A stretch of DNA of 64,000 nucleotides from Paraflavitalea pollutisoli (lineage in GTDB: Bacteria > Bacteroidota > Bacteroidia > Chitinophagales > Chitinophagaceae). The position numbers were made by a program, and so were the translations under genes. Each line of letters opens with the position of its first letter. The stretch's first letter is position 1. The stretch is from contig NZ_JARKMX010000008.1 in NCBI RefSeq assembly GCF_029360705.1, forward strand, positions 2,782,202-2,846,201. Reading direction: 5' to 3'. Below the pieces are notes generated by a model that was not told where the DNA came from, did not search any database, and saw only the letters and a list, made by a program, of their open reading frames with translations. Shown piece by piece: positions 13,642 to 50,049 of this stretch.

Positions 13642-13686
13642 TGAAATGTCATTTAAGCGACCTATCTGCCTCTTGCCTTTCCTGGG

Positions 13687-35300: not shown

Positions 35301-35881
35301 AGCGATACAGGCCGGAAGATGCCCATGGGCTGAGAGCCTTCCGAAAAACCTCTTTCGGGCGAACAGCCACCGCATACCCAGGGCAGGTCGGTGATCCCTG
35401 TGGGGTGATCAGCACGCACGGCCAGCACGTTGGCCTGGCCAGCTTTGATAACAGTAGTTACATCCAGCGTAAAACTGGTACGGCCGCCGGCATGGATCCC
35501 TGCCTGCCGACCATTCAACCAAACGGTGGCATAAGAGCCAACGCCTTCAAAATAGAGAAAGTAGCGCTTACCCGGTTCTTTGCGCAAGAGGGGAAATGAT
35601 TTCCGGTACCAGGCATAGCCATGGTGGTTGCCATGCAGCTTACGCCGGTAGCCTTCGTAGGCATCCCAGTTGTGGGGCACCTGTACGGTTTGCCAGCCCG
35701 TAGGCAGGAAGTCAGTCTTTTCGAATCCCTCCATAGAAGGCATCAATGAATCCTGCGCCATCGTATACCAGTCCTTATTGAGCGCAATGAGGGTACGGGC
35801 CGCCGGCTGGGCGGCTATCTGGCCAGCATACAATAGGACCAACCAAATCATCCATTGATATCGGGAACTGCTAAACCTCAT
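32360..35881 (-). CDS. GH2 glycoside hydrolase with malectin-like carbohydrate-binding domain and C-terminal modules
   Basis: The 1173-residue secreted protein (signal peptide about 1-25) has a GH2 core to about residue 610 with E439 in LWGLQNES as acid/base and E507 in LIGEYG as probable nucleophile. A DUF4982-like sandwich (DGLIVYSNCDEVELFND) follows. Residues about 725-890 match a malectin domain (YRVNAGGGDYKDSHGNTW and YLVELYFAEPWWG), a carbohydrate-binding fold. The last 280 residues look like one or two further beta-sandwich modules ending VGGADVQ. Its start overlaps the GH28 stop by ATGA, indicating tight coupling to the polygalacturonase. Beta-galactosidase or beta-glucuronidase activity on pectin side chains is likely. 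Confidence 0.88.
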   Translation of the reverse strand: MRFSSSRYQWMIWLVLLYAGQIAAQPAARTLIALNKDWYTMAQDSLMPSMEGFEKTDFLPTGWQTVQVPHNWDAYEGYRRKLHGNHHGYAWYRKSFPLLRKEPGKRYFLYFEGVGSYATVWLNGRQAGIHAGGRTSFTLDVTTVIKAGQANVLAVRADHPTGITDLPWVCGGCSPERGFSEGSQPMGIFRPVSLVITNDLRVQPFGVHAWNDTTVTTKQATIQLQTTIKNYDKYSRQVQVVQRLLNAAGKLVTQVATPALVQAGSELVLPQQLALQNNVHLWSLEDPYLYSIVTLIKEKGKVIDSVSMPYGIRWIRWSVVNSGSTNQFFLNGQPVFINGIAEYEHLLGNSHAFSEVQVRARALQMKAVGFNAFRDAHQPHNLRYQQYWDSLGILWWTQLSAHVWFDTPRFREQFKQLLKEWVIERRSCPSVVLWGLQNESKLPADFARECTELVRSLDPTASQQRLVTTCNGGEGTDWDVPQNWTGTYGGNPATYHEDVKRQVLIGEYGAWRTLDLHAEGGFVQNAPYSEDRMTLLMEQKIRLAESVKDSSSGHFFWLYTSHDNPGRVQGGEGLRELDRIGPVNYKGLLTPWEEPLDVFHMFRSNYASAPMVYIVSHTWPQRFTSPGKKDGLIVYSNCDEVELFNDVNHTSLGKRKRAGIGTHFQWDEVDIHYNVLYAVGYKNGKPVAQDQVILHNLPEAPHFKALIQDDPALLQPRAGYQYLYRVNAGGGDYKDSHGNTWLADRKLREPGTWGSGSWTDQFADMPAFFASQRQTYDPIKNTKDWPLFQTFRYGRDKLSYTFPVPDGEYLVELYFAEPWWGTGGGMDCTGYRLFDVAVNDQTVIHDLDIWKAVGHDAALRKTVAVKVTGGELVIHFPQVKVGQAILSAMAIGTKQKDIRPAPPSPALIGQLEGDTGYWQPRQWLNIGDVMYTDRSTAFTRLPSMLYGAEWLRTRGSRQPAAISSFKVPVTSDVYIAYPAGVATPSWMEGYEDMKTALDQQVLYRKRFTAGATVVLDKPSYSEELPMYGVFVNEASSIEPAYDLKPVASHKAAEGLLSGAAVKQVAVNGKEQVVFATDAEGVVDLKMTIGAADEYSVNFKYNWPGAQAITGELSLLQADGTLLKKEKVNLLNTRAGKWNYISTTTGSMINAGHYIIRFTTQAAKGLAVGGADVQ

Positions 35882-37239
35882 TTGGTGCCACTGGTAAATC
35901 CGTTCACAGACAGTTGTTGTACGTTTTCGGTCACGAGCGGACTGCCCTTTTTTACATTGATGCGTACTTTATTCAACTCGATGTCCTTGGCTTTGCGGAT
36001 GGTGATGCCTTGCTCTGCTTCAAAATAAACATCGTTCAGGCTGATCTCCTGTATAGGCATCTCTTCGAGGCCATTGATGTACAGGGCCGTCTTGGTATAG
36101 GCAGTGATATTGCTCAGTCGGATATTGCGGAATTTCGGGGTGCGCTCACTGACCGGCTCAAGGGGAAGCCCCTTGGCATATTCCATATCCAGTACAATCG
36201 CCTGGTCGCGGATATTTTTCATGACGATATTATCTACCCGGATATCTTCCACGACGCCACCGCGGCCGCGGGCTGTTTTGATGCGGATGCCCCGGTCGGT
36301 GCCATCGAAGATGCAATTGCTGATGGTGATGTTCTTCACATCGCCACTCATTTCGCTGCCGATCACTACGCCACCATGACCACTGAGCATGGTACAGTTG
36401 GTGATGGTATAATTCTGCGCCGGTGCCGCCTTCGTGCGGCCGGGAATATCTTTTCCCGCCTTGATGGTGATACAGTCATCGCCTACGCTGATATGACAAT
36501 TGCTGATGTGTACGTATTTGCAGGACTCGGGATTGATACCGTCTGTATTGGGTGATGGCGGATTATTGATGGTCACCCCGTTCACGGTGACGTTTTCACA
36601 AAACTCAGGATTGACCGTCCAGAATGGTGAATTCCGGATCGTAATGCCTTCGATCTGTACATTCTTGCAATACATGGGCTGAATAAAGGGCGGACGGAGA
36701 AAACCGCGTTTCATTTGACGGGGATCATCGGGCAACAGGATGTTCTTATTGAGACTGTCAAAGATCACTTGCCATTTGCTGCGCTCCTGCCCTTCCTGAT
36801 AGCCCTCTACAAAATGCCACCATTTTTTTCCGTGGCCATCGATGATGCCGCGTCCCTTGATGGCGATGTTCTCCGCTTCGTAGGCGTAGAACAGGGGCGA
36901 AAAACTGGTGACGTCTACCCCTTCATAACGACTCTTCACCATGGGCAGGTAATCGTCGAAATCATCACTAAAGTGCAGCTCGGCGCCGGCATCGATCAAA
37001 ACGGTGATATTGCTTTTGAGATGGATGGGACCGGTCAGGTATTTACCAGCCGGGAAATAGACCGTCCCCCCGCCTGCTTTGGAAGCCGCTGCGATGGCTT
37101 TAGCGATAGCCGTGGTGGCTTTGCGGCTGCTATCGTTGCGCGCGCCGTACTTGAGCACATTGTAATACTGTTGAGCGAAGAGATGACCGGAGAAGGTCAA
37201 TAAGGTCAGGAAAGCTACCGCTTGCAGGATCTTTTTCAT
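35878..37239 (-). CDS. GH28 polygalacturonase
   Basis: The 453-residue protein has a signal peptide (about 1-22) and all GH28 landmarks in order: NTDG (D233), GDDC (D254/D255), GHGG (H288) and the substrate-binding RIK (R319-K321). The N-terminal AIAKAIAAASKAGGGTVYFPAGKYLTGPIHLKSN block is also typical. GH28 hydrolyses alpha-1,4-galacturonan or, in exo and rhamnogalacturonan forms, related pectic bonds by inversion. It is the first gene of the minus-strand series, directly after about 0.95 kb without minus-strand genes. The promoter of the enzyme operon should therefore lie just above 37240. Confidence 0.95.
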   Translation of the reverse strand: MKKILQAVAFLTLLTFSGHLFAQQYYNVLKYGARNDSSRKATTAIAKAIAAASKAGGGTVYFPAGKYLTGPIHLKSNITVLIDAGAELHFSDDFDDYLPMVKSRYEGVDVTSFSPLFYAYEAENIAIKGRGIIDGHGKKWWHFVEGYQEGQERSKWQVIFDSLNKNILLPDDPRQMKRGFLRPPFIQPMYCKNVQIEGITIRNSPFWTVNPEFCENVTVNGVTINNPPSPNTDGINPESCKYVHISNCHISVGDDCITIKAGKDIPGRTKAAPAQNYTITNCTMLSGHGGVVIGSEMSGDVKNITISNCIFDGTDRGIRIKTARGRGGVVEDIRVDNIVMKNIRDQAIVLDMEYAKGLPLEPVSERTPKFRNIRLSNITAYTKTALYINGLEEMPIQEISLNDVYFEAEQGITIRKAKDIELNKVRINVKKGSPLVTENVQQLSVNGFTSGTK

Positions 37240-38194: not shown

Positions 38195-38599
38195 ATGAAA
38201 AGAACCTTATCCGACAATGATCTCCTGCGCGTTCAGGACGCTGCTGCCATTATTGAAGCCAATCTCCAGCAACACCTCAAGATTCCCGAGCTGGGGGAGA
38301 AAGTGTACCTCAACAGTTTCAAACTAAAGACAGGATTCAAACAGGTATATGGCGTAGGACCGTATACGTATCTTCAACACATGCGCATGGAGTTTGCCAA
38401 ACAAATGCTACGGGAGGGCGCCACGCTGCGGCATATTGCTGTTTCCATCGGCTTTCGGGGAGCGCAGGCCGAATCCAATTTTATCAAGGCCTTCAAGAAA
38501 TATGAAAAGATACCACCGGGTTTATGGCGTCAGGTGCATGTACAACAGAAGGCGGTATCGTTGTATCCGGTATACAAAGTGGATATCAGCAACAATTGA
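38195..38599 (+). CDS. AraC-type transcription regulator consisting only of the DNA-binding domain
   Basis: The 134-residue protein is almost entirely an AraC/XylS HTH pair. The first helix-turn-helix is around residues 28-55 (IPELGEKVYLNSFKLKTGFKQVYG), with the linking helix YTYLQHMRMEFAKQML. The second HTH is LRHIAVSIGFRGAQAESNFIKAFKKYEKIPP, close to the family signature. There is no sensory domain in front, whereas typical AraC regulators have about 150 more residues. It is transcribed away from the pectin operon and is the only conventional DNA-binding regulator next to it. Control of that operon is plausible but inferred. Confidence 0.88.
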   Translation: MKRTLSDNDLLRVQDAAAIIEANLQQHLKIPELGEKVYLNSFKLKTGFKQVYGVGPYTYLQHMRMEFAKQMLREGATLRHIAVSIGFRGAQAESNFIKAFKKYEKIPPGLWRQVHVQQKAVSLYPVYKVDISNN

Positions 38600-38852
38600 C
38601 AATGCATGAAAGTGCCACCTGGAATAGTAGTTATACCGATCGAAACAAAAAGGCACTTTACTTTTACATCGTCAATACAACGACATCCACCCACAACCCA
38701 CATACATTCCTTGCTATCAGCAGGCCCCGATAGAAAAACCAAACATGAAACAAGCAGTCTAACCAGCTAACCAATTTAACAACAAGCGGCATTTGCCTTC
38801 AGCACTTCAAAGAGGTGCCAGAGAAAGCTTTGCCCAAACAAATACTTATACC

Positions 38853-39341
38853 ATGAACCGATCCACGGTTGTTGGGCAGGAATCTATTCGCCCAAAATCC
38901 AAGATATCCCTACGATCGCTGACCAGTAAAGCAGCGATACTGGAAGTATGCTGTTTCTTAATAACGCTCTTATTCATCTATGCAGCGATCTCCAAATTAA
39001 GAGACTTTAGCACCTTTCAGTTGCAGCTGGGGCAGTCGCCTTTCATCACCGACTATGCTGTCCCCCTCTCCTACATGGTCCCTATCGGAGAGATACTGCT
39101 GGCCCTGATGCTGATCTATAAGCCACTGCGGTTGATTGGCCTGTATGGATCGCTGTTTACGATGGCGCTGTTCACGGCCTATATTTATTCGATGTTGAAC
39201 TTCAGCTACTATGTACCCTGTAGTTGTGGCGGCATACTGAACTCACTGAGTTGGGAAGCACATCTCTGGTTCAATATCGGGTTTGTGGTCATTGCACTCG
39301 CCGGCATTTTCATCCAGGTACATTTCAAAAACAAAGCATGA
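38853..39341 (+). CDS. MauE/DoxX-family redox-associated integral membrane protein
   Basis: I start at 38853 (MNRSTVVGQ), giving 162 residues; the open frame begins 20 codons earlier. The protein has four likely membrane helices (about residues 29-47, 72-90, 95-115 and 133-155), the AAISKLRDF segment after helix one and a CSC motif (C123/C125 in VPCSCGG), as in MauE-type proteins where a Cys pair takes part in disulfide formation. A further Cys pair, C33/C34, lies within helix one. It overlaps the next gene by ATGA. The cassette context with Cys-pair secreted proteins suggests a role in their oxidation. Confidence 0.8.
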   Translation: MNRSTVVGQESIRPKSKISLRSLTSKAAILEVCCFLITLLFIYAAISKLRDFSTFQLQLGQSPFITDYAVPLSYMVPIGEILLALMLIYKPLRLIGLYGSLFTMALFTAYIYSMLNFSYYVPCSCGGILNSLSWEAHLWFNIGFVVIALAGIFIQVHFKNKA

Positions 39342-40396
39342 GCATCTACAGTAAACATATTGTGCTATCTCTGTCGACGATCACCATCGCCGTGGGCGTG
39401 GTAGCCTTCCTGGCCAATAAAAGTGCGGGAATGATGGAGGAAGAAACAAAGTTCGACCGGAAGATGACGAACATAAACCTTATCCTATCTTCTGTTACTC
39501 CGCGCTCTTTGATGATGACTGCCGTAGCTGGCGTAAAAGACAATAGACTCTATTTTCAGACGGTGTATCCCAACAAGGTACTGGTCACAGACTTTGACTT
39601 TAAGAACCATGTAGAGAAAACGCTGAATGTACCTTCGGATGACACAACGGCTTCGATGTTTACCCTGCTCCTGAAAGACAATGGTCTGACCATCGCCGCC
39701 AGCAATACGCCGGCCCTATTCGCGGCTGATGAAGGTTCGGCCTCTACACGGATGTACCATTTTCCACAAAGATCCTTCACCAGGGTAGTCATGATTGCTC
39801 CAGACTCTTATGTTTTCCGCGGACGGGACACGGCCGTTAAAACAAAAGACCAGACATTTTTTAAAGGGAGCCCGGCAGCAGGCATTACCGGGAGGGAAGA
39901 CAATGTATCGAAAAAGGTGGGCGACTACGGCATGTCGACCGACGGCATACTCGATTACGACAAGACCTCAAACCTGATCGTATACGTACCATTTTATGGC
40001 AACCAATTCATTTGCCTGGACACAAACCTTCATAAAAAATACGAAGTAACGACGGTGAATGACAAAAGCAAGGAGATCAACAGCATTGGTGTTACCGATG
40101 CACAAGGCCAAAAAATGGTCACCAATGTGGGTCCTAAGAGATTATTGAATACTTACTCGAACGTGCATGATGGAACCTTATACATCAAATCGGACGCCCG
40201 TTCGCAGCTACAGCCAGCAGCCACCTTTGCCAATAACTCGACCATCGACATGTACGACATAGCATCCGGCCGGTACAAAGGCAGCTTTTACATACCCGAC
40301 CATCAAGGAGAAAAGCCATTTTCTTTCCGGGTCACCGACCAATCTGTCATTGCCTTATACAAATCATCTGCCGTCAACTGGCATATAAATAACTAA
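39338..40396 (+). CDS. Membrane-anchored propeller-like protein of unknown function
   Basis: Starting at the ATGA overlap (39338) gives 352 residues with one N-terminal membrane segment (HIVLSLSTITIAVGVVAFLA) and an extracytoplasmic remainder. That remainder has repeated beta-strand runs (RLYFQTVYPNKVLVTDFDF, NLIVYVPFYGNQFICLDTNL, GTLYIKSDA, STIDMYDIASGRYKGSFYIPD) like a six- or seven-bladed WD/TolB-type propeller. No lipobox and only one Cys are present, and no catalytic motif is evident. It is coupled to the MauE-like gene and followed by two small secreted proteins. It may be a scaffold or receptor for them; this is inference. Confidence 0.75.
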   Translation: MSIYSKHIVLSLSTITIAVGVVAFLANKSAGMMEEETKFDRKMTNINLILSSVTPRSLMMTAVAGVKDNRLYFQTVYPNKVLVTDFDFKNHVEKTLNVPSDDTTASMFTLLLKDNGLTIAASNTPALFAADEGSASTRMYHFPQRSFTRVVMIAPDSYVFRGRDTAVKTKDQTFFKGSPAAGITGREDNVSKKVGDYGMSTDGILDYDKTSNLIVYVPFYGNQFICLDTNLHKKYEVTTVNDKSKEINSIGVTDAQGQKMVTNVGPKRLLNTYSNVHDGTLYIKSDARSQLQPAATFANNSTIDMYDIASGRYKGSFYIPDHQGEKPFSFRVTDQSVIALYKSSAVNWHINN

Positions 40397-40479
40397 ACGC
40401 TTTGCGCGCAAAAAAGGGGAACGCCGAAAACCTATAAAAGAGTAGGCGATTTAATGACCATTTCTTTAATTATTATTTT

Positions 40480-40809
40480 ATGAAAAAAGTATCAATCAGC
40501 GGCGCTGCTTTGCTTGCCGTCGTTATTGCCGTAGCCAGTGCATTTACAACAGCTAAACCAACGATCACAGAAGGCTGGTACCTGGCTCAACCTGGTACAG
40601 CGCTTGGCACACCTCCTGCCAATCCTCCTGGTTACACTTATACTGCTACAGCGTTCCCGATCTACCATGGCCTGACTTCTCCCAACGTAGCAGTAGGTCA
40701 GTGCGCGAGCAATCCTACTCAACTGTGTTCGGCATATTTCAATGCTACGCCAGTTAATGTACGGGACCCTCAAGAAACCATCTTCTACAAAGCTGGTGGT
40801 CGTCAATAA
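40480..40809 (+). CDS. Small secreted protein A (DUF6520-like) with a C-x7-C pair
   Basis: The 109-residue product has an N-terminal export segment (residues 1-24, ending ASAFTT), then a 55-residue Pro/Gly/Tyr/Thr-rich middle (GTPPANPPGYTY). Two Cys, C75 and C83, stand in QCASNPTQLC, and the tail is VNVRDPQETIFYKAGGRQ. The size, the AFTT signal end and the paired Cys resemble the Bacteroidota DUF6520 family, which I assign only tentatively. It closely resembles protein B encoded next to it. It follows the propeller gene by 83 bases and precedes a strong hairpin. Function unknown; the paired Cys beside a MauE-type oxidase suggest a disulfide. Confidence 0.78.
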   Translation: MKKVSISGAALLAVVIAVASAFTTAKPTITEGWYLAQPGTALGTPPANPPGYTYTATAFPIYHGLTSPNVAVGQCASNPTQLCSAYFNATPVNVRDPQETIFYKAGGRQ

Positions 40810-40821
40810 GCATTTTGCAAC

Positions 40822-40847
40822 AAACGGCAGCGAAATCGCTGCCGTTT
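40822..40847 (+). terminator. 11-bp perfect hairpin between the twin small-protein genes
   Basis: AAACGGCAGCG and CGCTGCCGTTT pair perfectly around an AAAT loop, 12 bases after the stop codon of protein A. The following sequence (GCTATTG) has no U-run, so it may act as a partial terminator, mRNA stabiliser or processing site that sets the ratio of A to B. Confidence 0.5.
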
Positions 40848-40908
40848 GCTATTGATTATGACTATAAGCTGAACCAATTTATCCAATCACCAATCATCAC
40901 CATTTTAG

Positions 40909-41232
40909 ATGAAAAAATCATCTTACAGCCACCTATCATTGCTTGCAGGCATCCTCGCTTTGACAAGTGCGTTTACAACGCTACGAATTACGGAAGGGTG
41001 GTATTTAGCTGTTGGTGGCACACCATTAGGCACTCCACCTGCCAATCCTCCAGGATATACTTACGGTCCAGCCGGTTTTCCGACCTATTTTGGATTGACC
41101 TCTCCGACAGTGGCAGTCGGCCAGTGCGCGAGCAATCCTTCACAAACATGCGCTGCCTATTTTAACAGCAGCGGCGTCAACGTCAGAGATCCGCAAGAGA
41201 GCATCTTTTACAAAGCTGGTGGCCGACAGTAA
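40909..41232 (+). CDS. Small secreted protein B (DUF6520-like), paralogue of A
   Basis: The 107-residue product shares with protein A the segments ITEGWYLA, GTPPANPPGYTY, GLTSP, VAVGQCASNP, the second Cys (C73 and C81, again C-x7-C) and the tail NVRDPQESIFYKAGGRQ. The signal segments differ (SYSHLSLLAGILALTSAFTT here), so the mature parts are the conserved portion. This implies a tandem duplication under selection for the mature sequence. It ends 13 bases from the end of the convergent TlpA-like gene. No function is known to me; a secreted structural or signalling peptide is possible. Confidence 0.78.
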   Translation: MKKSSYSHLSLLAGILALTSAFTTLRITEGWYLAVGGTPLGTPPANPPGYTYGPAGFPTYFGLTSPTVAVGQCASNPSQTCAAYFNSSGVNVRDPQESIFYKAGGRQ

Positions 41233-41245
41233 AGATACTACCGTA

Positions 41246-42583
41246 TTACTTCCTATCCCTGATCACCAGCATCTCAACATCCGCTTCTTCGATCACAAGG
41301 TCTAGCCCATACTTCTGCAGCTCTTTCCTGAAAGCATGGTAGTCCCTGAAATCACCCGTAATATCCAGGTCCATAAACCCTTCATAGCCCGATGAATTAA
41401 CAAACGGATAATGATGCTTCCAACCCTGCCCGTATTGTATCAGGTCCATCATAAAAGTCACCATCGGCACATGATCATACTTGAGATTATAGACCGTATA
41501 CTCTCTATCCGCTTCACCTTCTGGCTGTTGGCTCACGAATTTCCTTGAATTACCTAGTTTCACGAGGTTATAGCAGATCTTCTTTCTTTTTTCCACATTG
41601 GCCGTCAATGGAAACCACTTCTCCAGGTCTTTTTGCATGATCTTGTACAACCTGGCCGTATCTGCCATTGGCACCATCAGATCGTAACATACACCATGGT
41701 TTTTCAACCAGTCTATATAGCGCTGATCTGTCCATTCGGGCCCATGCCCCACTGTATACAACAACGAATCTTTCGTTTCCAGCATGATCCTTGATTCTTC
41801 CAGGAATAAAGAGCCGGTCAACTCCAGCGCATAGGCCACTCCAAACAAAAACACCGGCGTTTCGTTCGTGATCATTATCTTGTACTGCCCTTTACCGATT
41901 TCATTGCCTGGACCACCTCCAACTGCCATCGACAGTTGTGGCATATACCTTGTCACCATACTATATGCCACCAAATTATCCTCATTGATCAGCGTATTGT
42001 GCTGCGTAAACATAGGTTTGGCATAACTCATCTTTACAGACTCTACAACATCCGTTTTTGTTGCAGCGACGATTTGCTGTCCTCCCAAAAAACGGTTCAA
42101 GTTATCTTCATTTAATGCGTAATTATCCGTGATCCCTTTTACCACCCCATCCCTACCGATCCATACATAATGTGGCAATATCTTATGCGGGAACAGCTTG
42201 CTCAATACCTCATCGTTGACCACCGTGCGCACTTTCACGCCCGTCGCCTTTTTGATCCTTGTCAGCAGGGACTGTACCTTTTCCGGACTCTCGGCTGTTA
42301 CAGGTATGATTTCCAGTTTATCTTTGTACGCTTTTTGAATGGAATCGTTTTTGGGCAGATCAGACACACAAGGCTTGCACCAGGTGGCCCAAAAATCAAG
42401 AATGATCGCTTTTCCTTTCAGGTCCGCGAGATTATCGATCGCCATATCGCTGTTAAACAACTGTAGCGCTACATCGGGCACGTCATCGCCCGCATTTAAA
42501 GAACGTATATTGTCCTGCGCCAACAACACGCCACAGTACAGGAGTGCAGGAATCAATGCTTTTATCCTTTTACCAGTAATCAT
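41246..42583 (-). CDS. TlpA-type thioredoxin-fold protein with C-terminal DUF3738-like domain
   Basis: Started at 42583 (MITGKRIKALIPALL), which gives a signal peptide; the open frame extends 44 codons upstream over the SusD end. The 445-residue protein has a thioredoxin fold at about residues 30-160 with the redox motif WATWCKPC (C69/C72) and the cis-Pro region KILPHYVWI. The C-terminal part ends in a DUF3738-like block (LQKYGLDLVIEEADVEMLVIRD). TlpA proteins reduce disulfides outside the cytoplasm. It follows SusD by 34 bases in an STN-SusC/SusD operon and converges on the small-protein cassette, so its substrates may include imported or secreted Cys proteins. Confidence 0.87.
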   Translation of the reverse strand: MITGKRIKALIPALLYCGVLLAQDNIRSLNAGDDVPDVALQLFNSDMAIDNLADLKGKAIILDFWATWCKPCVSDLPKNDSIQKAYKDKLEIIPVTAESPEKVQSLLTRIKKATGVKVRTVVNDEVLSKLFPHKILPHYVWIGRDGVVKGITDNYALNEDNLNRFLGGQQIVAATKTDVVESVKMSYAKPMFTQHNTLINEDNLVAYSMVTRYMPQLSMAVGGGPGNEIGKGQYKIMITNETPVFLFGVAYALELTGSLFLEESRIMLETKDSLLYTVGHGPEWTDQRYIDWLKNHGVCYDLMVPMADTARLYKIMQKDLEKWFPLTANVEKRKKICYNLVKLGNSRKFVSQQPEGEADREYTVYNLKYDHVPMVTFMMDLIQYGQGWKHHYPFVNSSGYEGFMDLDITGDFRDYHAFRKELQKYGLDLVIEEADVEMLVIRDRK

Positions 42584-42617
42584 AGAGCTTTTTTTAATGT
42601 TGAATGATTGACATCCT

Positions 42618-43979
42618 TTATCTTGGATTTTGTGGAATTCCACTTGCCAGCACTTCACTCGGCGGTATGATCCATGCATATTTTTTATCGCCAGGCGCCA
42701 GCACGACCGTTTCATTATTGGCGAATCGCTTGACTGTCACTGCGGACGCTGGCTGCTTACTGAAACGCCGTAGATCGGCCCATCGAAGACCACGGAAAGC
42801 AGTTTCTTTTCTGCGCTCTTGTAAAATGACCTGCAAGGCTTCGGCAGCAGAAGCCGCCGTAGCCGGAACAAAGTGCGCTGCCGAAAATCGCTTTACCAGT
42901 AATTTATTCAGCAATTCCAATGCTGGCGTCGTCTCCCCTTTGCGGGCGTACACTTCGGCAAGGATCAGGTATAATTCGCTCGCAGCAATACCCCCAAACA
43001 ATTGCGACACATTGCCCGAATAACTACCGGCCCATACTATGCGGCCTCCATTATCACGGAAGAAGTGCAACTTACGCAGATCATTGGCATCGTAACTTTT
43101 ATACAAACTGGAATCTACTGTAGCGGCATACTGGTATAAAGTAGGCGCTGTTAGCATGGGCGTATAAAAGATCACCTCGGGGTTATCGTAGTATTGTGGA
43201 AGGGAAAATTGGTCGTTATACGTCAGGGTATTAAAGTCGAGTAATTGATCATATAATGACAGGGCCAGTTGGCTGTATTTCCGGGCACTGTCGTATTGAT
43301 CTATTGACAAATAAACGCGGCTCAGCAATCCATAAGCCGCTGTCCGCACTGGCCTTGTCCTGTACCTCGCTGTGGCAGGCAACAAACCGGCCGACTGACC
43401 CAGGTCGGCGATGATCTGGTTGTATACTGTTTGTATCGATACCCTCCCCTGCTGCTCATTGATATTGGAAGACAGCCGCAATGGAACTCCCTGGTCGGTA
43501 TCGGCGGTGGCAGCATTGTATACGTTGGCGAACTGCTCGATCAAACCAGCATACGCCAGCGCCCGGAAAAAATAGGCATTACCGGCCACCTCGTTCCATT
43601 TTCCAGGATTCAGTTCCTTCACCCCTTTCTTTGCAAGACCTTCCAATACCAGGTTCGACACCAGTATGCCCTGATAGGGAAATTCCCATTCATACAAGGT
43701 AGGATAAGACCATCCATTTTTTGACCATAGGTAAAAATCAAGTCCATATTGACCCAGAGAAGATATCACCGATTGATCGACGTAATAGTTATCCGATCCC
43801 GCCTCACCAAGCCCAGGATATTGGTGTATATTGGGGTTATCCAATAATGCCTGAAAATCTTCCAGGTCCGACGGTACAGCGATCGATGCTTCAGGCTTTG
43901 CATCCAACCAGTCCTTGCTGCAACCTGTGCAGGCCAACAGCACCATCGCGACAATCATTGTAGGTATTCTTGCATTCAT
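42618..43979 (-). CDS. SusD/RagB-family lipoprotein (pair 2)
   Basis: Started at 43979 (MNARIPTMIVAMVLLACTGC) for its lipobox ACTGC. The 453-residue protein is short for the family but shows SusD order: FQALLDNPN near the N-terminus, NAYFFRALAYAGLIEQFANVYNAATADTDQGVPLRL, the TAAYGLLSRVYLSIDQYDSARKYS TPR and the closing LQVILQERRKETAFRGLRWADLRRFSK. It follows the STN-type SusC by 22 bases. This short SusD class goes with SusC/ECF-FecR systems that also encode thioredoxins or peptidases, so the ligand may be a peptide or glycoprotein rather than pectin. Confidence 0.92.
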   Translation of the reverse strand: MNARIPTMIVAMVLLACTGCSKDWLDAKPEASIAVPSDLEDFQALLDNPNIHQYPGLGEAGSDNYYVDQSVISSLGQYGLDFYLWSKNGWSYPTLYEWEFPYQGILVSNLVLEGLAKKGVKELNPGKWNEVAGNAYFFRALAYAGLIEQFANVYNAATADTDQGVPLRLSSNINEQQGRVSIQTVYNQIIADLGQSAGLLPATARYRTRPVRTAAYGLLSRVYLSIDQYDSARKYSQLALSLYDQLLDFNTLTYNDQFSLPQYYDNPEVIFYTPMLTAPTLYQYAATVDSSLYKSYDANDLRKLHFFRDNGGRIVWAGSYSGNVSQLFGGIAASELYLILAEVYARKGETTPALELLNKLLVKRFSAAHFVPATAASAAEALQVILQERRKETAFRGLRWADLRRFSKQPASAVTVKRFANNETVVLAPGDKKYAWIIPPSEVLASGIPQNPR

Positions 43980-44001
43980 AATTAGGTCGTTTGAGTTGAT
44001 C

Positions 44002-47000
44002 TTAAAATCCGGCTTTAACGCCAAAGGCATAACTTCTTACAGGCCTGAACACTACCTGCGCATCGGGGTCGATACCGTAGTTATTCGCCCGCCACAAGAT
44101 GCCGGCATTTTGCACATAGAAATTGAACTGGAGGTAGTCTATCACTTTCGACTGCTGCTTTTTAAAGCTCCAGTCATACGTCAGGGAGATATCCTGCAGC
44201 CGGATATGATCGCCTCGCTCAACCGTTACTGAAGACCCCGCGTAAAATTGATCCGCTGAGAAATTGGCTACGGCTGGCATAGCAGGAACATCAGTTACCT
44301 GCTCATCACCAGGCTTTTTCCAGCGCCGCGAAAAATCCACATTACCCGAAAGCAAATTGTATAACCCAAAGTAGCTGATGGTGGATCTTCGAAAATAATA
44401 GCCCATTTTATAAGCGATATTGAATGAAAGTGCCAATGAACCATACGCCAGCGTGTTGCGCAGGGCACCAAAGTAGACAGGCACGGCCGAGCCATTGTAT
44501 ACCTGCTGTTTCCTGGAGCTATTTAATAGGGCTGCATAGTCCTGGGTAGGCGTTTTACTGGTATCACTCAAATATCCTAAAGGCGCTCCGCTGGCGGGAT
44601 CGAGGCCAGCCCAATAATAACTGTAAATACCCTGCACGGGTCTACCTTCCACAAATAAAGCCCCATACTCATTGCCATCGTATCGGGTAACCCGATCCCT
44701 GGCATAGCTAAATAAAAAAGCTGTAGTCCATTTGAACCTTCCATCGATGTTTCTGGTGGTGATCGCAACATCAACGCCATGCCCTTTGATGGCCGCGTAA
44801 TTCTTGGTAGCAGTCGTAAAACCTGTACTGGAAGGAATGACCTGCGCAGCAATCATATCACGGCCTTTTTTCCAAAAAGCTTCCACGCTGCCAGACAATT
44901 TTCCCTGCAGTGCGCTAAACTCTACGCCAATATTGGAAATACCGATCTTCTCCCATTTCAGTTCGGGATTGCCGGGAGAAACCAGGGTAGCGAAAATTGG
45001 CTGTATGGCAGTTTGTATGTTGGAATACACAGCCGTCGTATACGCGGTGGCATTCACCAGTGTATTACCATTGAAACCATAGCTGGCCTTTACCAGCAGG
45101 TTGGACAACCAGGGAATGTTGAAAAACGCTTCGTTGCTCACGATCCATTTGGCGCCAGCCGACCACAACGGGGTTGATTTGTTGTTGTAACTAAGTCCGA
45201 ATAAATTGCCCTGATCGATACGACCACTTACCGAAGCTATATAACGGGCACGAAAGGTATAGGAAGCATTGGCAAAGGCCGACCGGTACCGTTGCAACGA
45301 TCCCCGGATACTATTATAGTTGACAATGGTGGCTGCCCCTTGCGGATAGGTATTGAAATACGTGCTGTAGTCTACTTCCTGAAACGAGCTATTCCTCTCG
45401 TTGTAACCGTAATAGCCAGCACTATTACCGGCCCCTTCTACTTCCCGAACCTCCACCCCGGCAAGCGCCGACACCTGGTGATCGCCCGCCGTATAATTAT
45501 ATGTAAGACCCAGCCGCCCATTGTGTGCAGTATATTCGTCCCGGTTATTACGAAGAATACCTCCCAACGGAACTTTGTAGGTGATTGGATCGGTGGTTAG
45601 GTCTGTGAATCGGTTGATAACATCCCGTGCAAAATAAGTGTCAGGGCTATAGTAGATTCGACCGTTTGTAGTGCCCTTCGAGTATTGATACTTGACATCC
45701 ACACTCAACCCACGGAGAAGATTGTATTTGATCCCTGCGGTGAGACGCAGGTCAGTCAGTCTGGTAACATTATCCGATAGCGACTGCTCCTGCAGCGGAT
45801 TGAAACGCCAATTCAACAAGCGGCCACCACCAGCCGTATCAGCCCAGGCAGGGATAAAATCCTTGGTAACAGGCATAGGATTACCGGCATCGTCGGTAAA
45901 CCTGGTATAGGGATACAGAGCGATCCCACTGGGCCCGCCAACCACGAGGTTTTGAATGACGGAGTTATTGAATGTTTCACTTTGCACATAGTTGATGCCC
46001 CCGGAAAACTCCAGCCCCCGTAAGGGTGTTATATTCATGGCGGAATTGATCGTTAAACGATTATTGGCATTCCCCACCTCTTGCTGCAAATTTCTGTCGT
46101 ACCCGACAGAAAGCGCGTAATTGGCATTATCGCTGCCGCCCGATAATCCGATACTGTATTGCTGATTGACCGCCCTCCGGTAAAAATACTTCGACAAGCC
46201 ATCACGCACATCGATCGAGCGCAGCGAATCCAGGGAGCGATTGGCTTGGTCAGCCGTGATTAACCCCTGCTGCTGTTTGTAGTATAAGGAAGCCCCCGGC
46301 GGCGCAAATGTATAAGGCCAGTCATTGGGGTTCTCGAGATACCAGGTATAAAAACTATTATCGTACAGGTACTTTTCTACTTCCAGCAAATCGCCCGAGC
46401 TGAGGTAATTCCTGTTGTACCCCATATCGGGCTTCTCCGCCACCGTCACATTGGCCGCAAACAGTACTTTTGCTTTCTGGTTATACTTTCCTTTTTTCGT
46501 AGTGATCACGATCACGCCATTGCCCGCCCGCGCCCCCCAGATACTGGCAGCGGCAGCATCTTTCAACACGGTTAAATTTTCTACATCGTTTGGGTTGATG
46601 TTGTTAATATCACCATCGTAGGGGAAATTATCGACCACCACCAGCGGACTTTCATTCGCAATGATCGTACTTCGACCGCGGATGCTGATTGACCGGGTGC
46701 CGTCCGCCGCACCTGCATTAAACACCAAGCCACTGGTTATACCATCCAACCGGCTCAGCACATCGGTCGTGATCCGCTTGGACATCATCTCCCGGTCGGG
46801 CTGCGAAAATGAACCCGTTGCACGCTCTGGAGAGATATTTTGGTAACCGGTATTTAACGTCACCGTCACCTCTTTCAGGTCAACCGTTTTTATACTGAGT
46901 TGCACAGCCACAAAGTCGCGGCTGCCGATAGCTACTTCCTTCGTTTCGTACTGCACACTCGTAATCAACAGCTGATCATCATCATCCACATCGTTTAGCG

Positions 47001-47448
47001 AAAACTCCCCCTTGCTATCGGTAGCAGTAGAATTAGCCGGACGTGCCTTCACCAGGATACTGGCCCCCACTACCGGCTCGCCATCCTGATTAGTAACCTT
47101 GCCCTTCACGATGCGTCCCTCGATCGACAAGGTCACCACCGGCTTCGACTTTTCCCGCTTCTTGAAAATAAAGATCGTACCCCCACCCTTCACCTCGTAT
47201 TCCAATCCCTGCCCCTCCAGCGCTTTGTCGAGCACCAGCTGGTAGCTGGCCTTTGTAAAACTCAGGCTCACTTTCCTGGCTCCTTTCAAATCCTCCCAAT
47301 TGAACACGACGGTCATACCCGTTTGCTTCTCGATCTCGCTGAACACGCGATCGAGGGTAGCATCCTTCAGCGACACCGTTACCTGGGCAACTGCACCCGC
47401 ACTTACCTGCAGGCAAAAGATGGTCAAAAAGATAGTGAGCAGTTTCAT
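44002..47448 (-). CDS. SusC/RagA-family TonB-linked receptor with N-terminal STN signalling domain (pair 2)
   Basis: Started at 47448 (MKLLTIFLTIFCLQVSAGAVAQ), a good signal peptide; the open frame runs 37 codons further upstream. The 1148-residue protein has an STN domain at about residues 23-90 (VSLKDATLDRVFSEIEKQTGMTVVF), a carboxypeptidase-like domain (VKGKVTNQDGEPVVGASILV), a plug (LKDAAAASIWGARAGNGVIVI) and a barrel ending VRSYAFGVKAGF. STN domains contact a FecR-type anti-sigma factor, and FecR and an ECF sigma gene lie just upstream. This receptor should thus both import and signal. The ligand is unknown. Confidence 0.95.
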   Translation of the reverse strand: MKLLTIFLTIFCLQVSAGAVAQVTVSLKDATLDRVFSEIEKQTGMTVVFNWEDLKGARKVSLSFTKASYQLVLDKALEGQGLEYEVKGGGTIFIFKKREKSKPVVTLSIEGRIVKGKVTNQDGEPVVGASILVKARPANSTATDSKGEFSLNDVDDDDQLLITSVQYETKEVAIGSRDFVAVQLSIKTVDLKEVTVTLNTGYQNISPERATGSFSQPDREMMSKRITTDVLSRLDGITSGLVFNAGAADGTRSISIRGRSTIIANESPLVVVDNFPYDGDINNINPNDVENLTVLKDAAAASIWGARAGNGVIVITTKKGKYNQKAKVLFAANVTVAEKPDMGYNRNYLSSGDLLEVEKYLYDNSFYTWYLENPNDWPYTFAPPGASLYYKQQQGLITADQANRSLDSLRSIDVRDGLSKYFYRRAVNQQYSIGLSGGSDNANYALSVGYDRNLQQEVGNANNRLTINSAMNITPLRGLEFSGGINYVQSETFNNSVIQNLVVGGPSGIALYPYTRFTDDAGNPMPVTKDFIPAWADTAGGGRLLNWRFNPLQEQSLSDNVTRLTDLRLTAGIKYNLLRGLSVDVKYQYSKGTTNGRIYYSPDTYFARDVINRFTDLTTDPITYKVPLGGILRNNRDEYTAHNGRLGLTYNYTAGDHQVSALAGVEVREVEGAGNSAGYYGYNERNSSFQEVDYSTYFNTYPQGAATIVNYNSIRGSLQRYRSAFANASYTFRARYIASVSGRIDQGNLFGLSYNNKSTPLWSAGAKWIVSNEAFFNIPWLSNLLVKASYGFNGNTLVNATAYTTAVYSNIQTAIQPIFATLVSPGNPELKWEKIGISNIGVEFSALQGKLSGSVEAFWKKGRDMIAAQVIPSSTGFTTATKNYAAIKGHGVDVAITTRNIDGRFKWTTAFLFSYARDRVTRYDGNEYGALFVEGRPVQGIYSYYWAGLDPASGAPLGYLSDTSKTPTQDYAALLNSSRKQQVYNGSAVPVYFGALRNTLAYGSLALSFNIAYKMGYYFRRSTISYFGLYNLLSGNVDFSRRWKKPGDEQVTDVPAMPAVANFSADQFYAGSSVTVERGDHIRLQDISLTYDWSFKKQQSKVIDYLQFNFYVQNAGILWRANNYGIDPDAQVVFRPVRSYAFGVKAGF

Positions 47449-48093
47449 GATTCTTATCCAGTGTTTTCCCGACCCCACCATCGCCACGCTGCGGCTACAG
47501 GAGGTTTCAGGCCTTCGGGACACAGCACATGCCCGCAAGCCATGAACAATTAATTTCATACCTTACATAAGTTTTGGGTGACATTATCTCGAACAGCGCG
47601 ATAGTAAAGCTCATAACAAGCCCGTCAACACGGGTATCGCCGGAAGTGGTTGCAACACTTTCGGCTTTTTGTTACAGCCATACACAGGATCGATCGAGTT
47701 ACCGATCTTTTTTTTCAAGGGACAAGTGTTTAAATTTCGGTAGGATAAGCGTGCAAATTGATCGCGGTGGAGTGTAGATCAACGTTGTTGCATAAAAAGA
47801 AGTAAGGTATTGGAAAAGACGGGATTGATCAGTGTATTGCTTGTAGACATATATGTAGGTTTTGGTTGCGTGCAGGAAAAAGGAACAAAAAAGAAAGCCC
47901 CGGGTTGAAAATAGTATTCCTTCTCGTAGACACGAAAACGGAACTTCGGGGCCCTCCTCACTTCGGTACCTCCTTTTGTTTATCGGTTAGTCAGTGCCGG
48001 CACCAGGCCGGCCATCGGTAAGCATCTTTTCATAGTCAAGGTCAATGGTCAGGTATCAGTGTTAAGGCGTAAGCTCGTTGAGCCATTCATCTA
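47449..48093. other. Intergenic region between FecR and the STN-type SusC
   Basis: This gap of about 650 bases should hold the promoter of the receptor operon, presumably read by the adjacent ECF sigma factor. A candidate terminator for the sigma/FecR transcript lies at about 47885-47953. Short open frames (one of 60 codons on the minus strand at 47779-47961) look like chance. No recognisable operator or repeat was found. Confidence 0.55.
47885..47953 (-). terminator. Candidate terminator of the sigma/FecR operon
   Basis: On the minus strand CGGGGC/GCCCCG arms (47897-47902 and 47947-47952) enclose a 44-base loop that itself contains a small TCGT-GTCT-ACGA hairpin. They are followed by CTTTCTTTTTTG. 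The U-rich tail is good, but the short outer stem and large loop make this only a moderate call. Confidence 0.4.
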
Positions 48094-49296
48094 TCACTGG
48101 TCACCGGTAGTTTTCACCACCAGTTTCCTTCCTTCCAGTATAAATTCAACAGATTCATCGTATCGTTTCAGAATGGTCAGCAATTCACGGAGCGGTATGT
48201 CACGGCTGAACGCCCCTTGCAGTTGCCAGGATTTGCCCGGATTATCCGGCATCACGACTTCTACATCGTACCATCGAGCCAGCTGGCGCATGATCTCCGG
48301 AAGACTTGCCCGGTTGAAGCTGAACTGTCCCCGCATCCAGCGCGTAGACGCTTCCACCGGAGCTTGACCCACCGACAAGGCACCGGTCGACCTGGCCCAG
48401 ACAGCCTGCCTACCTGCCGTCAGTTGCTTTACCTGCTTACCAGCGGTAACGATCACCGAACCTTCTATCAGCGACGTGCGTTCGGCAGGCTCATTGCCGT
48501 AGGCATTGACATTGAATTTGGTACCGGTTACCCGTATCTCATGCCCACGCTCCGTGGTGACGATAAACGGCTGGCGGCTGTTCTTCGCCACTTCAAAATA
48601 GGCCTCGCCCGTAAGCTCTACACGACGTTCTGTACCGGCAAACACGGCCGGAAAGCGCAGACTGGAACCGGCATTGACCCAGCAGCGACTACCATCTGCC
48701 AGTTGCAACGCATAGTAGCCGCCGTTGGGCACCTGCAAGGTTTGCAGACCGGCATCTTTGTAATCACCGCCTGGCTTGTAGTGCACAGAACCATCGGACA
48801 GTTTTTCGATGGTAGCACTACCCTGCTGACCGATCACACCGGTGCCGGTGCCGTCGAGATCGATGCGCGACTGATCGCTCAACACGAGTACGGCCCGTTT
48901 GCTACCGGGTGGAAGGTCTGTGGTATTGGATTGGACTAAGACGGATTGGTCGGGAATGACTGTTTGGTTGGGCAGGTAATAATAAACGATGCTGGCACCC
49001 AGTAATAATAGCAGCACGGCAGCCGCCGTGAGGTACCAGGCGCGGTAGTTGACAGCTTTGCGCATGGGTACTACCGGGGTCAGTTGTAATTCTTCCCCCT
49101 GCCACACCTTATCGGCCGCTTCATAGTCAGTAAAAATGGATTGAATACCAGCATTAGTAGTAAGTCGATCAACCAGCGCTGCATTGGCCACGGAGATCTG
49201 TGAGAACTCTTCCAGTTCCCTTTGTTCTTCCGCCGAGATGGTTCCTGTGAGCTGCTTGTAGGCAAGCACACGAATCGTTTTGGCCTTGTCCAGCAT
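48094..49296 (-). CDS. fecR: FecR-family anti-sigma factor
   Basis: I choose the ATG at 49296 (MLDKAKTIRVLAYKQL), 13 codons inside the open frame, because AAGAGGA lies 4 bases upstream. The 400-residue protein has an N-terminal cytoplasmic helical part for sigma binding and one transmembrane helix (AWYLTAAAVLLLLLGASIVYYYLP, about residues 76-99). A periplasmic FecR domain follows (GSKRAVLVLSDQSRIDLDGTGTG, VPNGGYYALQLADGSRCWVN, VELTGEAYFEVAKNSRQPFIV), and the end is an STN-like DUF4974 (FNRASLPEIMRQLARWYDVEVV). It should hold the upstream sigma factor until the SusC STN domain relays substrate binding. Gene order is sigma-fecR-SusC-SusD. Confidence 0.95.
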   Translation of the reverse strand: MLDKAKTIRVLAYKQLTGTISAEEQRELEEFSQISVANAALVDRLTTNAGIQSIFTDYEAADKVWQGEELQLTPVVPMRKAVNYRAWYLTAAAVLLLLLGASIVYYYLPNQTVIPDQSVLVQSNTTDLPPGSKRAVLVLSDQSRIDLDGTGTGVIGQQGSATIEKLSDGSVHYKPGGDYKDAGLQTLQVPNGGYYALQLADGSRCWVNAGSSLRFPAVFAGTERRVELTGEAYFEVAKNSRQPFIVTTERGHEIRVTGTKFNVNAYGNEPAERTSLIEGSVIVTAGKQVKQLTAGRQAVWARSTGALSVGQAPVEASTRWMRGQFSFNRASLPEIMRQLARWYDVEVVMPDNPGKSWQLQGAFSRDIPLRELLTILKRYDESVEFILEGRKLVVKTTGDQ

Positions 49297-49300
49297 TTGT

Positions 49301-49307
49301 TCCTCTT
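49301..49307 (-). promoter_or_regulatory. Ribosome binding site that decides the fecR start
   Basis: On the minus strand AAGAGGA precedes the ATG at 49296 by 4 bases (ACAA). The upstream in-frame Met at 49335 has no comparable purine run. Strong Shine-Dalgarno sequences are uncommon among the genes of this window, so it is informative here. Confidence 0.6.
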
Positions 49308-49428
49308 GTTTAATTAAAGGTCCTACTGAAGGCATTTGCTGCCCCCATTGCTACTAAACAAGTAACCGCCAAAAACATATACCCGAAAACGAATTATTTT
49401 TCGATTTTCTGTAAAATAGTACCAGTGC

Positions 49429-50049
49429 CTATAACATATTGTCTCTTTCTGCCAGAAAAACCAGCAGGAGAGACAAGAAAAATGAATCCTTTAATAAGGT
49501 ACGCAACTGGGCCAGCGCCTTCGATTTCACCGTCCGTACCAGCTCCCGGCTCATCTCCAGCTTTACAGCCGCCTCTTCTACCGAATAGCCCTCGATAAAC
49601 AGCAGCTGAATCACGTTGCGCCGTTGCTCGGGCAGCTGCTGCAGCACCACCCGCAGCTCGCGGGTATACTCCCGCAGGATGATATCTCGTAGGATGGGGC
49701 TATTGGTCGTGTCCTCCGTCAGAAAGGCGCGTACTTCCTCCAACGCCACTTCCTTTTTGCTCTTGAAACCACTTCCGTATTTCAGGTAATTGTACGCCTT
49801 GTTGCGGCAGGTTATGTACATGTAGCTATGAATATCATTCATCGTCTTGAAGTTGCCCCGCAATTGCCAGCAGGTCAGGTAGGTATCTGAAACGATGTCC
49901 TTGGCCACTTCCACGTCCCGCACCAACTGGTTAGTAAACTGGAAAAATAGGGTACGGTATTCATGATAGTATAATCGAAATGCCTCCTCGGCCCCCGAAT
50001 TGATCCGGTTGGCTAGTTGATCGTCGATCTCATGATGCTGTTGCGACAT
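49429..50049 (-). CDS. ECF-type RNA polymerase sigma-70 factor
   Basis: The 206-residue protein has region 2 at about residues 20-95 (EAFRLYYHEYRTLFFQFTNQLVRDVEVAKDIVSDTYLTCWQ, then SYMYITCRNKAYNYLK) and region 4 at about 135-195 (LPEQRRNVIQLLFIEGYSVEEAAVKLEMSRELVRTVKSKALAQLR). Length fits the ECF group. The last 15 residues are hydrophobic (FFLSLLLVFLAERD), a common feature of Bacteroidota ECF factors paired with FecR. It precedes fecR by about 130 bases. It should direct transcription of the STN-SusC/SusD/TlpA operon when the receptor is occupied. Confidence 0.95.
   Translation of the reverse strand: MSQQHHEIDDQLANRINSGAEEAFRLYYHEYRTLFFQFTNQLVRDVEVAKDIVSDTYLTCWQLRGNFKTMNDIHSYMYITCRNKAYNYLKYGSGFKSKKEVALEEVRAFLTEDTTNSPILRDIILREYTRELRVVLQQLPEQRRNVIQLLFIEGYSVEEAAVKLEMSRELVRTVKSKALAQLRTLLKDSFFLSLLLVFLAERDNML

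Follow-up and report, generated by a model that had tools for sequence, protein, structure and literature searches.

Convergent MauE and SusC/SusD gene modules around small secreted cysteine-pair proteins suggest a self-made protein partner for a SusC/SusD transporter in Bacteroidota

The region of the Paraflavitalea pollutisoli genome analysed here (the window; 64,000 nucleotides of contig NZ_JARKMX010000008.1, assembly GCF_029360705.1) contains a well-supported gene unit of two modules, namely a plus-strand cassette encoding a MauE/DoxX-type membrane protein, a beta-propeller protein and two small secreted proteins, and a convergent SusC/SusD operon. This unit seems to be centred on the small protein, and its arrangement suggests a system, so far undescribed, by which a bacterium would supply one of its own SusC/SusD transporters with a protein partner. 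SusC/SusD pairs are usually interpreted as transporters that bring in food molecules, and genomes of this kind carry dozens of them. If true, a phylum-wide subset of these pairs is tied to a self-made disulfide protein, which would change the annotation of the loci concerned; DUF6520 and an unnamed propeller family would obtain a function; MauE would have a defined substrate in a context other than methylamine metabolism; and for each of these transporters the ligand could be predicted from the adjoining gene. The literature search, in which subscription journals were thinly covered, returned no description of a system of small protein, MauE and SusC/SusD in the titles and abstract openings among the matches listed.

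In the window, the MauE/DoxX-type protein (38853..39341, plus strand; 162 amino acids) scored 112 bits against Pfam MauE (PF07291; cut-off 27 bits) and carries a PCSCGG motif (VPCSCGG; cysteines C123 and C125), of which P122, C123, C125, G126 and G127 were invariant in a 17-row MauE alignment. Its stop codon is overlapped by 4 bp by the ATG of the propeller gene (39338..40396, plus strand; 352 amino acids). The AlphaFold model of the latter protein (pLDDT 89.7) consists of a helix at residues 3-33, probably a membrane anchor, and a remainder that is nearly all beta, and its Foldseek matches were mainly beta-propellers; at E<=0.1, none of the Pfam families was found in two or more of 50 relatives, and no convincing match of the propeller profile to PDB sequences was found. 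The cassette continues with small secreted protein 1 (40480..40809, plus strand; 109 amino acids, with a signal-peptide-like N-terminus) and its tandem paralogue, small secreted protein 2 (40909..41232, plus strand; 107 amino acids). At a distance of 13 bp, a TlpA-type thioredoxin gene (41246..42583, minus strand; C-terminal region of about 300 amino acids) ends convergently; its product carries WATWCKPC and matched Redoxin (37.7 bits) and AhpC-TSA (37.3 bits), both over the cut-off. The minus-strand module further comprises a SusD-type protein (42618..44030; SusD-like_3, 108 bits), an STN-SusC TonB-dependent transporter/transducer (44002..47448; TIGR04056, 481 bits versus a cut-off of 368; STN, 51 bits), a FecR anti-sigma regulator (48094..49335; FecR, 60 bits) and an ECF sigma factor (49429..50049; Sigma70_r4, 42 bits). 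All marks of a SusC/SusD pair with surface signalling (SusC score, STN, FecR and ECF sigma) were found in the window, and Pfam detected no peptidase domain in the ten proteins scanned from 38195 to 50049. The reading frames of MauE, the propeller protein, both small proteins and TlpA were intact (5/5, with zero inner stops). The original prediction, which named a CSC-bearing MauE, an anchored propeller-like protein and twin C-x7-C proteins with TlpA 13 bp away on the opposite strand, was confirmed in these elements.

The two small proteins of the window are 73% identical to each other, their genes differing in 42 synonymous and 29 nonsynonymous codons out of 107. C75 and C83 are the sole cysteines of protein 1, as are C73 and C81 of protein 2. 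In a 36-row family alignment, most rows of which are 14-28% identical to the window small protein, only M1, C75 and C83 were invariant. The spacing of the pair was x7 in 43, x8 in 27, x6 in four and x9 in one of 75 cases, and among 110 small proteins two cysteines occurred in 22, four in 81, five in five, six in one and seven in one, none having three. Judged from the sequences, this conservation of the cysteine pair, together with the phylum-wide recurrence of the arrangement, is more than chance. The small proteins are highly variable, and tandem copies occur at several loci.

The window proteins are probably divergent relatives of DUF6520 (PF20130), a family of unknown function whose name was not found in the literature search; the sequence link is weak. 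Indeed, protein 1 scored 14.3 bits (E 0.053) and protein 2 gave no match, so that both miss the curated cut-off of 25.4 bits. An hhalign comparison of the two window proteins with 25 relatives, whose profile contained no window protein, gave a probability of 95.6 and an E-value of 1.2e-8, signal peptide included. Searched with the relatives' profile, the small proteins took the first two places among the 335 ORFs of the window (E 2.8e-5 and 1.3e-4), and they held these places with the mature part alone, at E-values of only 0.04 and 0.14. Furthermore, all but one of the 42 sequences in alignment A6 matched PF20130 at E<=0.1 (41/42), and a window protein is among these. DUF6520 members are likewise small proteins of the signal-peptide type with the same cysteine pair, a MauE neighbour and a convergent SusC/SusD; the window proteins show a pair spaced x6-x9, a signal-type N-terminus and a gene beside MauE and/or facing SusD, these being features found in the present analysis and not Pfam's definition of the family. 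However, the window proteins have one cysteine pair, whereas Flavobacterium members mostly have two. The structure of one Flavobacterium member is a five-strand beta domain (pLDDT about 80-91 over the last 55 residues), for which the PDB offered no matching fold (best E 4.1); similarly, no convincing match of the small-protein profile to PDB sequences was found. NVEALA (PF14055), considered as a sister case, matched in one of the 296 genomes at E<=1e-4.

The linkage of these genes is phylum-wide. Among 296 Bacteroidota genomes, 20 of the 22 DUF6520 matches over the cut-off lay behind MauE. In 80 named loci selected by MauE, the small cysteine-pair gene was present in 75, the remaining five ending at a contig edge, and a convergent SusC/SusD was found within 6.5 kb at 70 of the 72 loci whose downstream sequence extended for 6.5 kb or more (71/80 overall). 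At 51 of these 80 loci the propeller protein forms a fusion with MauE. Over 195 genomes of the window's own family, a two-sequence profile retrieved the window and four weak matches, and a 36-row profile gave 72 matches in 37 genomes. A survey of that family starting from the small gene (57 places) revealed both MauE and SusC/SusD at 36 places, SusC/SusD only at nine, MauE only at eight, of which three have just 0.2-4.9 kb downstream, and neither at four. MauE was present at 44 and convergent SusC/SusD at 45 of the 57 places, and small-protein homologues are therefore not found mostly without MauE, neither in this family nor in the phylum-wide survey. Two unrelated operons might have come to lie side by side by chance, as SusC/SusD operons are frequent (93 SusD-like_3 matches in the window's genome), but counts from seven genomes put the expected frequency of a SusD lying convergently within 6.5 kb at 0.9-3.9%, versus the 70/72, 45/57 and, in the comparison below, 41/44 observed; chance adjacency, refuted at the level of linkage, retains a practically negligible probability. 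The link between the modules, put forward in the original prediction as an inference, is supported by this conserved convergence across Bacteroidota.

The small gene takes the hub position in this arrangement. A convergent Sus operon was found at 41 of 44 MauE loci with a small gene versus 0 of 14 without an adjacent one, a comparison in which the classes were assigned by hand (L089 by its PF20130 match) and the loci were counted with the first MauE and propeller HMMs, which were mixed by natural fusions and later rebuilt. Conversely, the convergent SusD persists where a small gene has no MauE beside it, at 15 bp in L077 and at nine MauE-less places of the family survey (six at 28-57 bp, three at 238-1634 bp). 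Both observations point to the small protein as the central element. Four of the 14 loci lacking the small gene carry another MauE type (DCGCFG/S). Furthermore, a sigma-FecR-SusC-SusD operon lies behind MauE in the same direction in L008 and L071 and divergent from it in L075, in each case without a small gene, indicating that MauE can adjoin SusC/SusD without the small protein. Divergence is concerted across all genes of the unit, and this holds for paralogous units within a genome as well, the correlation of distances with those of the small protein being 0.73 for the propeller protein, 0.71 for S9, 0.70 for SusC and 0.66 for SusD; the two bootstrap differences tested between correlations include zero, and SusC/SusD is not singled out.

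Within the facing operon, SusC/SusD, not TlpA, is the more constant partner. TlpA occurred in the convergent module at 25 of 51 well-flanked places of the family survey, behind SusC in four of the 25. At the 80 named loci, the nearest on the facing strand among S9, TlpA and SusD was of the S9 type in 53, TlpA in 13 and SusD in eight, with none of the three in view in six; S9 stands here for a phmmer match (E<=1e-10) with the L091 S9 protein, Pfam having been run on two such proteins. The facing operons of relatives hold TlpA, S9, a DUF4953/5117 Met-zincin or S8, which argues for a proteinaceous substrate. It had been proposed that the two modules could form a redox pair, to be checked by co-occurrence of the small proteins with MauE as well as with TlpA and SusC; the linkage to MauE and SusC/SusD held, but TlpA as the reducing half was weakened by its counts and by the S9-type genes in its place. 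Accordingly, the standing of TlpA as an obligatory redox partner was lowered. A loop with MauE as oxidant and TlpA as reductant of the small proteins, which would serve as redox sensors or diffusible redox carriers, SusC/SusD being a mere operon neighbour of TlpA, would agree with the invariant cysteine pair, the redox type of both enzymes and the 25 places with convergent TlpA. However, TlpA is missing at the other 26 and SusC/SusD is the more constant gene, making such a loop quite improbable. The peptidases of three families in facing operons, together with a small disulfide-type beta domain of a size known among inhibitors, could also mean that the small proteins are never transported and act on the facing peptidase or SusC/SusD as inhibitors, chaperone-like adaptors or accessory subunits. 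Since the part mapped shows only TlpA or SusD at many loci, inhibition is excluded as a general function; a role as accessory subunit is possible, and this group of roles as a whole is considered rather unlikely.

The explanation preferred as a whole, to which slightly less than an even chance is given, is that a small protein of the cell's own making is oxidised by MauE, serves the facing SusC/SusD as cargo or ligand and is undone by TlpA or a peptidase. The two convergent modules would be one functional unit centred on the small protein, which would be exported by Sec and receive a disulfide in its invariant cysteine pair from MauE, with the propeller protein on the periplasmic side where present. 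The matured protein would be handled by the facing SusC/SusD, which most likely recognises and (re)imports it as a cargo or ligand made by the cell itself. The SusC/SusD operon would also provide a periplasmic undoing enzyme, which may be TlpA, by disulfide reduction, in the window and at about half of the well-flanked family places, and in other lineages a peptidase of the S9, Met-zincin or S8 type. Where STN-SusC is accompanied by FecR and an ECF sigma factor, engagement of the receptor may also be signalled to the genome. That the small proteins are substrates or ligands of the receptor, as originally suggested, appears to be the most economical reading. Against the explanation speak the eight of 57 places with MauE and no convergent SusC/SusD seen, the four with neither, the loci where MauE adjoins SusC/SusD in the absence of a small gene, the distance correlations, the weak sequence link to DUF6520 and the lack of a recognised route for export across the outer membrane. 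Alternatively, SusC/SusD may act as an exporter or surface-display gate for a disulfide-bonded toxin, pheromone or surface factor, with TlpA or the peptidase in quality control. The gene linkage would be identical, and the Sec-type signal, the variability and tandem copies of the small proteins and the failure to recognise an outer-membrane export route beside the genes, for which no dedicated search was made, are in line with export. However, SusC/SusD pairs of known function (RagAB, glycan SusC/SusD) are importers, and a reductase or peptidase dedicated within the operon fits breakdown after import better, so export is judged unlikely. A more specific form of the preferred import model, plausible at a clearly lower level, is that of private ligands, a large, fast-diverging family with one gene-encoded, MauE-matured, disulfide-locked protein per SusC/SusD of this type. 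Each protein would be released from the cell, and only the matching pair would take it up again or sense it, as a protein-based scavenger or kin signal unlocked by TlpA or a dedicated peptidase.

The mau operon contains the same four types of parts (MauE, a thioredoxin-like protein, a propeller and a small cysteine protein), and the small subunit of methylamine dehydrogenase has two conserved tryptophans for its cofactor. The unit might accordingly encode a similar enzyme, with the propeller protein as large subunit, the small protein as cofactor-bearing small subunit and MauE/TlpA as MauE/MauD. However, the invariant columns of the small protein are M1 and two cysteines only and therefore offer no conserved tryptophans for a quinone cofactor, the one tryptophan of each window protein not being invariant in the family. 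In addition, the propeller protein was recognised at only seven of the 44 MauE-bearing family places, and the constant neighbour is a SusC/SusD operon. An enzyme of this kind was rejected for lack of the tryptophans and is highly improbable, even though disulfide formation by MauE in a small secreted partner, the small subunit, is put forward as speculation in the available text of PMC7794033. That text also describes candidate decRiPPter families of Streptomyces with mauE/mauD homologues beside small precursor-like genes; these are actinobacterial, predicted RiPP clusters for which it does not mention SusC/SusD, whereas the present unit belongs to Bacteroidota and includes SusC/SusD. Ferredoxin uptake (Fus) and other protease-associated import systems couple a TonB-dependent transporter to a protease of the periplasm, by which the small protein is processed after import (Grinter et al. 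2019, PMC6793856), SusC being named once in the available text, as a distant comparison. The proposed unit would resemble Fus in coupling a transporter to a periplasmic processing enzyme for a small protein, but the cargo of Fus is a host protein, whereas the candidate cargo here is encoded beside the transporter. The M16 protease in the Fus transporter cluster has no counterpart in the window, where TlpA is the candidate processing enzyme, relatives carrying S9, Met-zincin or S8, and the transporter here is SusC/SusD. Methanobactin systems involve MbnB/MbnC modification enzymes and copper binding, and sigma/anti-sigma genes adjoin their transporter. Methanobactin, according to the available text of PMC9601215 and PMC3621798, is a secreted ribosomal peptide re-internalised by a specific TonB-dependent transporter. 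A secreted product with a dedicated transporter and adjoining sigma/anti-sigma genes would be common to both, but methanobactin is a peptide, whereas in the present unit the secreted partner resembles a folded protein with a disulfide.

Lastly, a gene for a short AraC-type HTH protein (38195..38599, plus strand; 134 amino acids; Pfam HTH_18, 52.7 bits), a possible regulator of the cassette, lies outside the stretch covered by the original prediction, resulting in the plus-strand order AraC-type HTH, MauE, propeller and two small proteins. An AraC-type ORF was present within 1 kb upstream of MauE at 35 of the 80 named loci.

The genes on which the original prediction was built are real and intact. 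The plus strand carries a short AraC-type HTH gene (38195-38599) upstream of the gene for MauE (38853-39341; 112 bits, profile cut-off 27), whose stop is overlapped by the start of a gene for a propeller-like protein (39338-40396), followed by two tandem genes for secreted-type small proteins of 109 and 107 amino acids. A gap of 13 bp separates the second of these from the end of the convergent minus-strand TlpA gene (WCKPC; Redoxin/AhpC-TSA above cut-off), which is followed in one operon by the genes for SusD, STN-SusC (TIGR04056, 481 bits, cut-off 368; STN, 51 bits, cut-off 28), FecR and an ECF sigma factor. The approximately 300 residues C-terminal to the thioredoxin domain of TlpA (42130-41246, minus strand) were without Pfam match. 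The Pfam search assigned no family above cut-off to the propeller-like protein, no Pfam family matched more than a single one of 50 relatives, and a PDB sequence search gave no convincing match; its AlphaFold model (pLDDT 89.7) has a helix (residues 3-33) and a nearly all-beta remainder, and the structural matches of this model are mainly beta-propellers. Two neighbouring long ORFs elsewhere in the window (32360-37239, minus strand; 1173 and 453 amino acids) presumably resemble GH2-type and pectinase-type glycoside hydrolases.

The two small proteins, 73% identical to each other, are divergent relatives of DUF6520 (Pfam PF20130), given their cysteine pair, gene position, weak sequence similarity and profile ranking. 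In the Pfam search, the first scored 14.3 bits, under the cut-off of 25.4, and the second had no DUF6520 match. Profile comparison of the window proteins with 25 relatives (window excluded) gave a probability of 95.6, and the 25-relative profile put them in the top two ranks of 335 window ORFs; they kept these ranks after removal of the signal peptide, but the scores were then weak (E 0.04 and 0.14). Their sole cysteines are C75/C83 and C73/C81, respectively, and only M1, C75 and C83 are invariant columns in an alignment of 36 small proteins. Past residue 22, 110 small proteins contained two (22 proteins), four (81), five (5), six (1) or seven (1) cysteines and never three, in a set whose members were mostly selected for at least one pair (three being still possible), with many close relatives and a few second ORFs at a locus that are perhaps chance. 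Cysteine-pair spacing at 75 loci, from the best 80 of 573 MauE-selected loci in named genomes, was x7 (43), x8 (27), x6 (4) or x9 (1). Such invariant, paired cysteines would fit disulfides in the small protein. At five Niastella and Longitalea loci (L119, L131, L141, L145 and L169), the order is MauE, small protein, propeller, and the small proteins are very short (65-71 amino acids), with a CC motif.

A link between the MauE module and the facing receptor module had been predicted, and it was conserved in phylum, genus and named-genome surveys as well as in one starting from the small protein. In 296 Bacteroidota genomes, searched for PF20130 and in parallel for MauE, 28 PF20130 rows were retrieved from 23 genomes, 22 of them above cut-off. 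MauE was directly upstream in 20 of these 22 and in 23 of all 28, the two exceptions above cut-off being in genomes G481 (internal stop) and G440. Of 24 regions around PF20130 matches, 22 contained MauE, all with convergent SusD/SusC behind (L079-L100); neither was present in L101 and L102, where the two exceptions lie. At the genus level, MauE adjoined seven of ten PF20130 rows (five genomes). The named-genome scan, with a MauE alignment as query, yielded loci (best 80 of 573) from many Flavobacterium and from Niastella, Chitinophaga, Pedobacter, Muricauda, Sinomicrobium, Christiangramia, Galbibacter, Chryseobacterium, Aequorivita and others. Among these best 80 of 573, a small Cys-pair gene was downstream in 75, the remaining five offering less than 200 bp of further sequence. 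Convergent SusD/SusC occurred within 6.5 kb in 71, or in 70 of the 72 whose downstream sequence reached 6.5 kb or more (absent in L133 and L176). MauE and propeller were fused into one protein in 51 of the same best 80 of 573, a propeller frequency biased upwards by a propeller-bearing query; many of the loci are closely related. In the window's own family, the 36-row small-protein profile gave 72 matches in 37 of 195 genomes. With tandem matches merged and seven known places excluded, the 57 newly examined places had both MauE and convergent SusCD (36), SusCD only (9), MauE only (8) or neither (4); the 51 well-flanked places (upstream flank of 2.5 kb or more, downstream flank of 4 kb or more) had 33, 8, 6 and 4, respectively. 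One SusCD-only place (L217) begins at a contig edge, no C-x-C-G/A-G motif was found in upstream ORFs above 90 amino acids of the other eight, and L213 has MauE beyond its FecR, on the far side. Small Cys-pair genes without MauE, facing SusD at 15-35 bp, were observed in L077 (9843-10106, minus strand), L212, L216, L218 and L221; in the last two, the start of the upstream gene presumably resembles a Ku-type protein.

Based on the SusD genes per genome, a randomly picked gene has a 0.9-3.9% chance of a convergent SusD no more than 6.5 kb downstream. Among 58 MauE loci, convergent Sus genes occurred within this distance in 41 of 44 with an adjacent small gene versus 0 of 14 without (Fisher p 7e-11), and in 19 of 22 versus 0 of 14 when the 22 PF20130-chosen loci were left out (p 2e-7). 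The three outside the 41 were L066 (no Sus seen), L103 (7.8 kb) and L118 (10 kb). Several loci caution against too simple a reading of the 0 of 14. Four of these (L110-L112 and L114) carry another MauE type (DCGCFG or DCGCFS), leaving ten of the same type. L008 (6051-14001) and L071 (2906-11053), one from the genome of the window and the other from a second genome in that genus, have AraC, MauE, sigma, FecR, SusC and SusD in a single direction, with no recognised small gene, and L075 has MauE without small gene, divergent from sigma-FecR-SusC-SusD. Other small secreted-type Cys proteins lie some kb away in L061, L068 and L075, which lack an adjacent small gene. The three Cys-rich ones of L061 (14254-18277, plus strand), approximately 4-8 kb from a PCSCGG-type MauE, match the small-protein profile weakly (E 5e-4 to 4e-3) and are possibly another MauE client family. 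In L069 and L074 (two genomes), MauE is followed by ORFs of approximately 750 and 272 amino acids, without adjacent small gene or SusCD.

The enzymes of the facing operon vary. Among the best 80 of 573 named loci, the nearest of S9, TlpA and SusD on the facing strand was S9 in 53 (as phmmer match to the L091 protein), TlpA in 13 and SusD in eight, with none in view in six; S9 and TlpA never occurred together, and FecR/sigma was downstream in 11. Pfam identified S9 in L083 and L091, a DUF4953/DUF5117 Met-zincin in L079 and an S8 subtilase in L096. TlpA was present in the facing module of 25 of the 51 well-flanked places, behind SusC in four. The parts that vary least are therefore the small protein, SusCD and MauE, and TlpA is one of several endings (25 of 51 well-flanked places; 13 of the best 80 of 573 named loci). 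At L073, a locus with three tandem small genes, an alpha-L-arabinofuranosidase gene (12711-14300, minus strand) lies between TlpA and SusD.

The unit is a TonB-dependent SusCD system with, in all probability short of certainty, a self-encoded protein partner. Since the facing operon carries a peptidase or a disulfide reductase, a protein or peptide cargo passing SusCD is pointed to, and since the small gene tracks convergent SusCD with or without MauE, the small protein is the best candidate for what SusCD handles; it may be imported, exported, sensed or a subunit. The best candidate for the enzyme that would form the disulfide of the small protein is MauE, fused to or beside a propeller whose membrane anchor is putative; such a role has been speculated on for MauE in methylamine dehydrogenase maturation (PMC7794033). 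Closest in working is protease-associated import (Fus; PMC6793856), although its mark, an M16 protease, is absent here. Secreted-and-retaken peptides of the methanobactin type may also be alike in working to this unit. In the literature searched, neither a mention of DUF6520 nor a description of MauE together with SusD was found. The parts of the unit diverge together, as shown by distance correlations with the small protein over 37 non-redundant loci (propeller 0.73, S9 0.71, SusC 0.70, SusD 0.66, MauE part 0.32), two bootstrap comparisons of which gave no significant partner preference. In eight pairs of paralogous units from six genomes, MauE, SusC and SusD are 45-68% identical and the small protein 18-44%.
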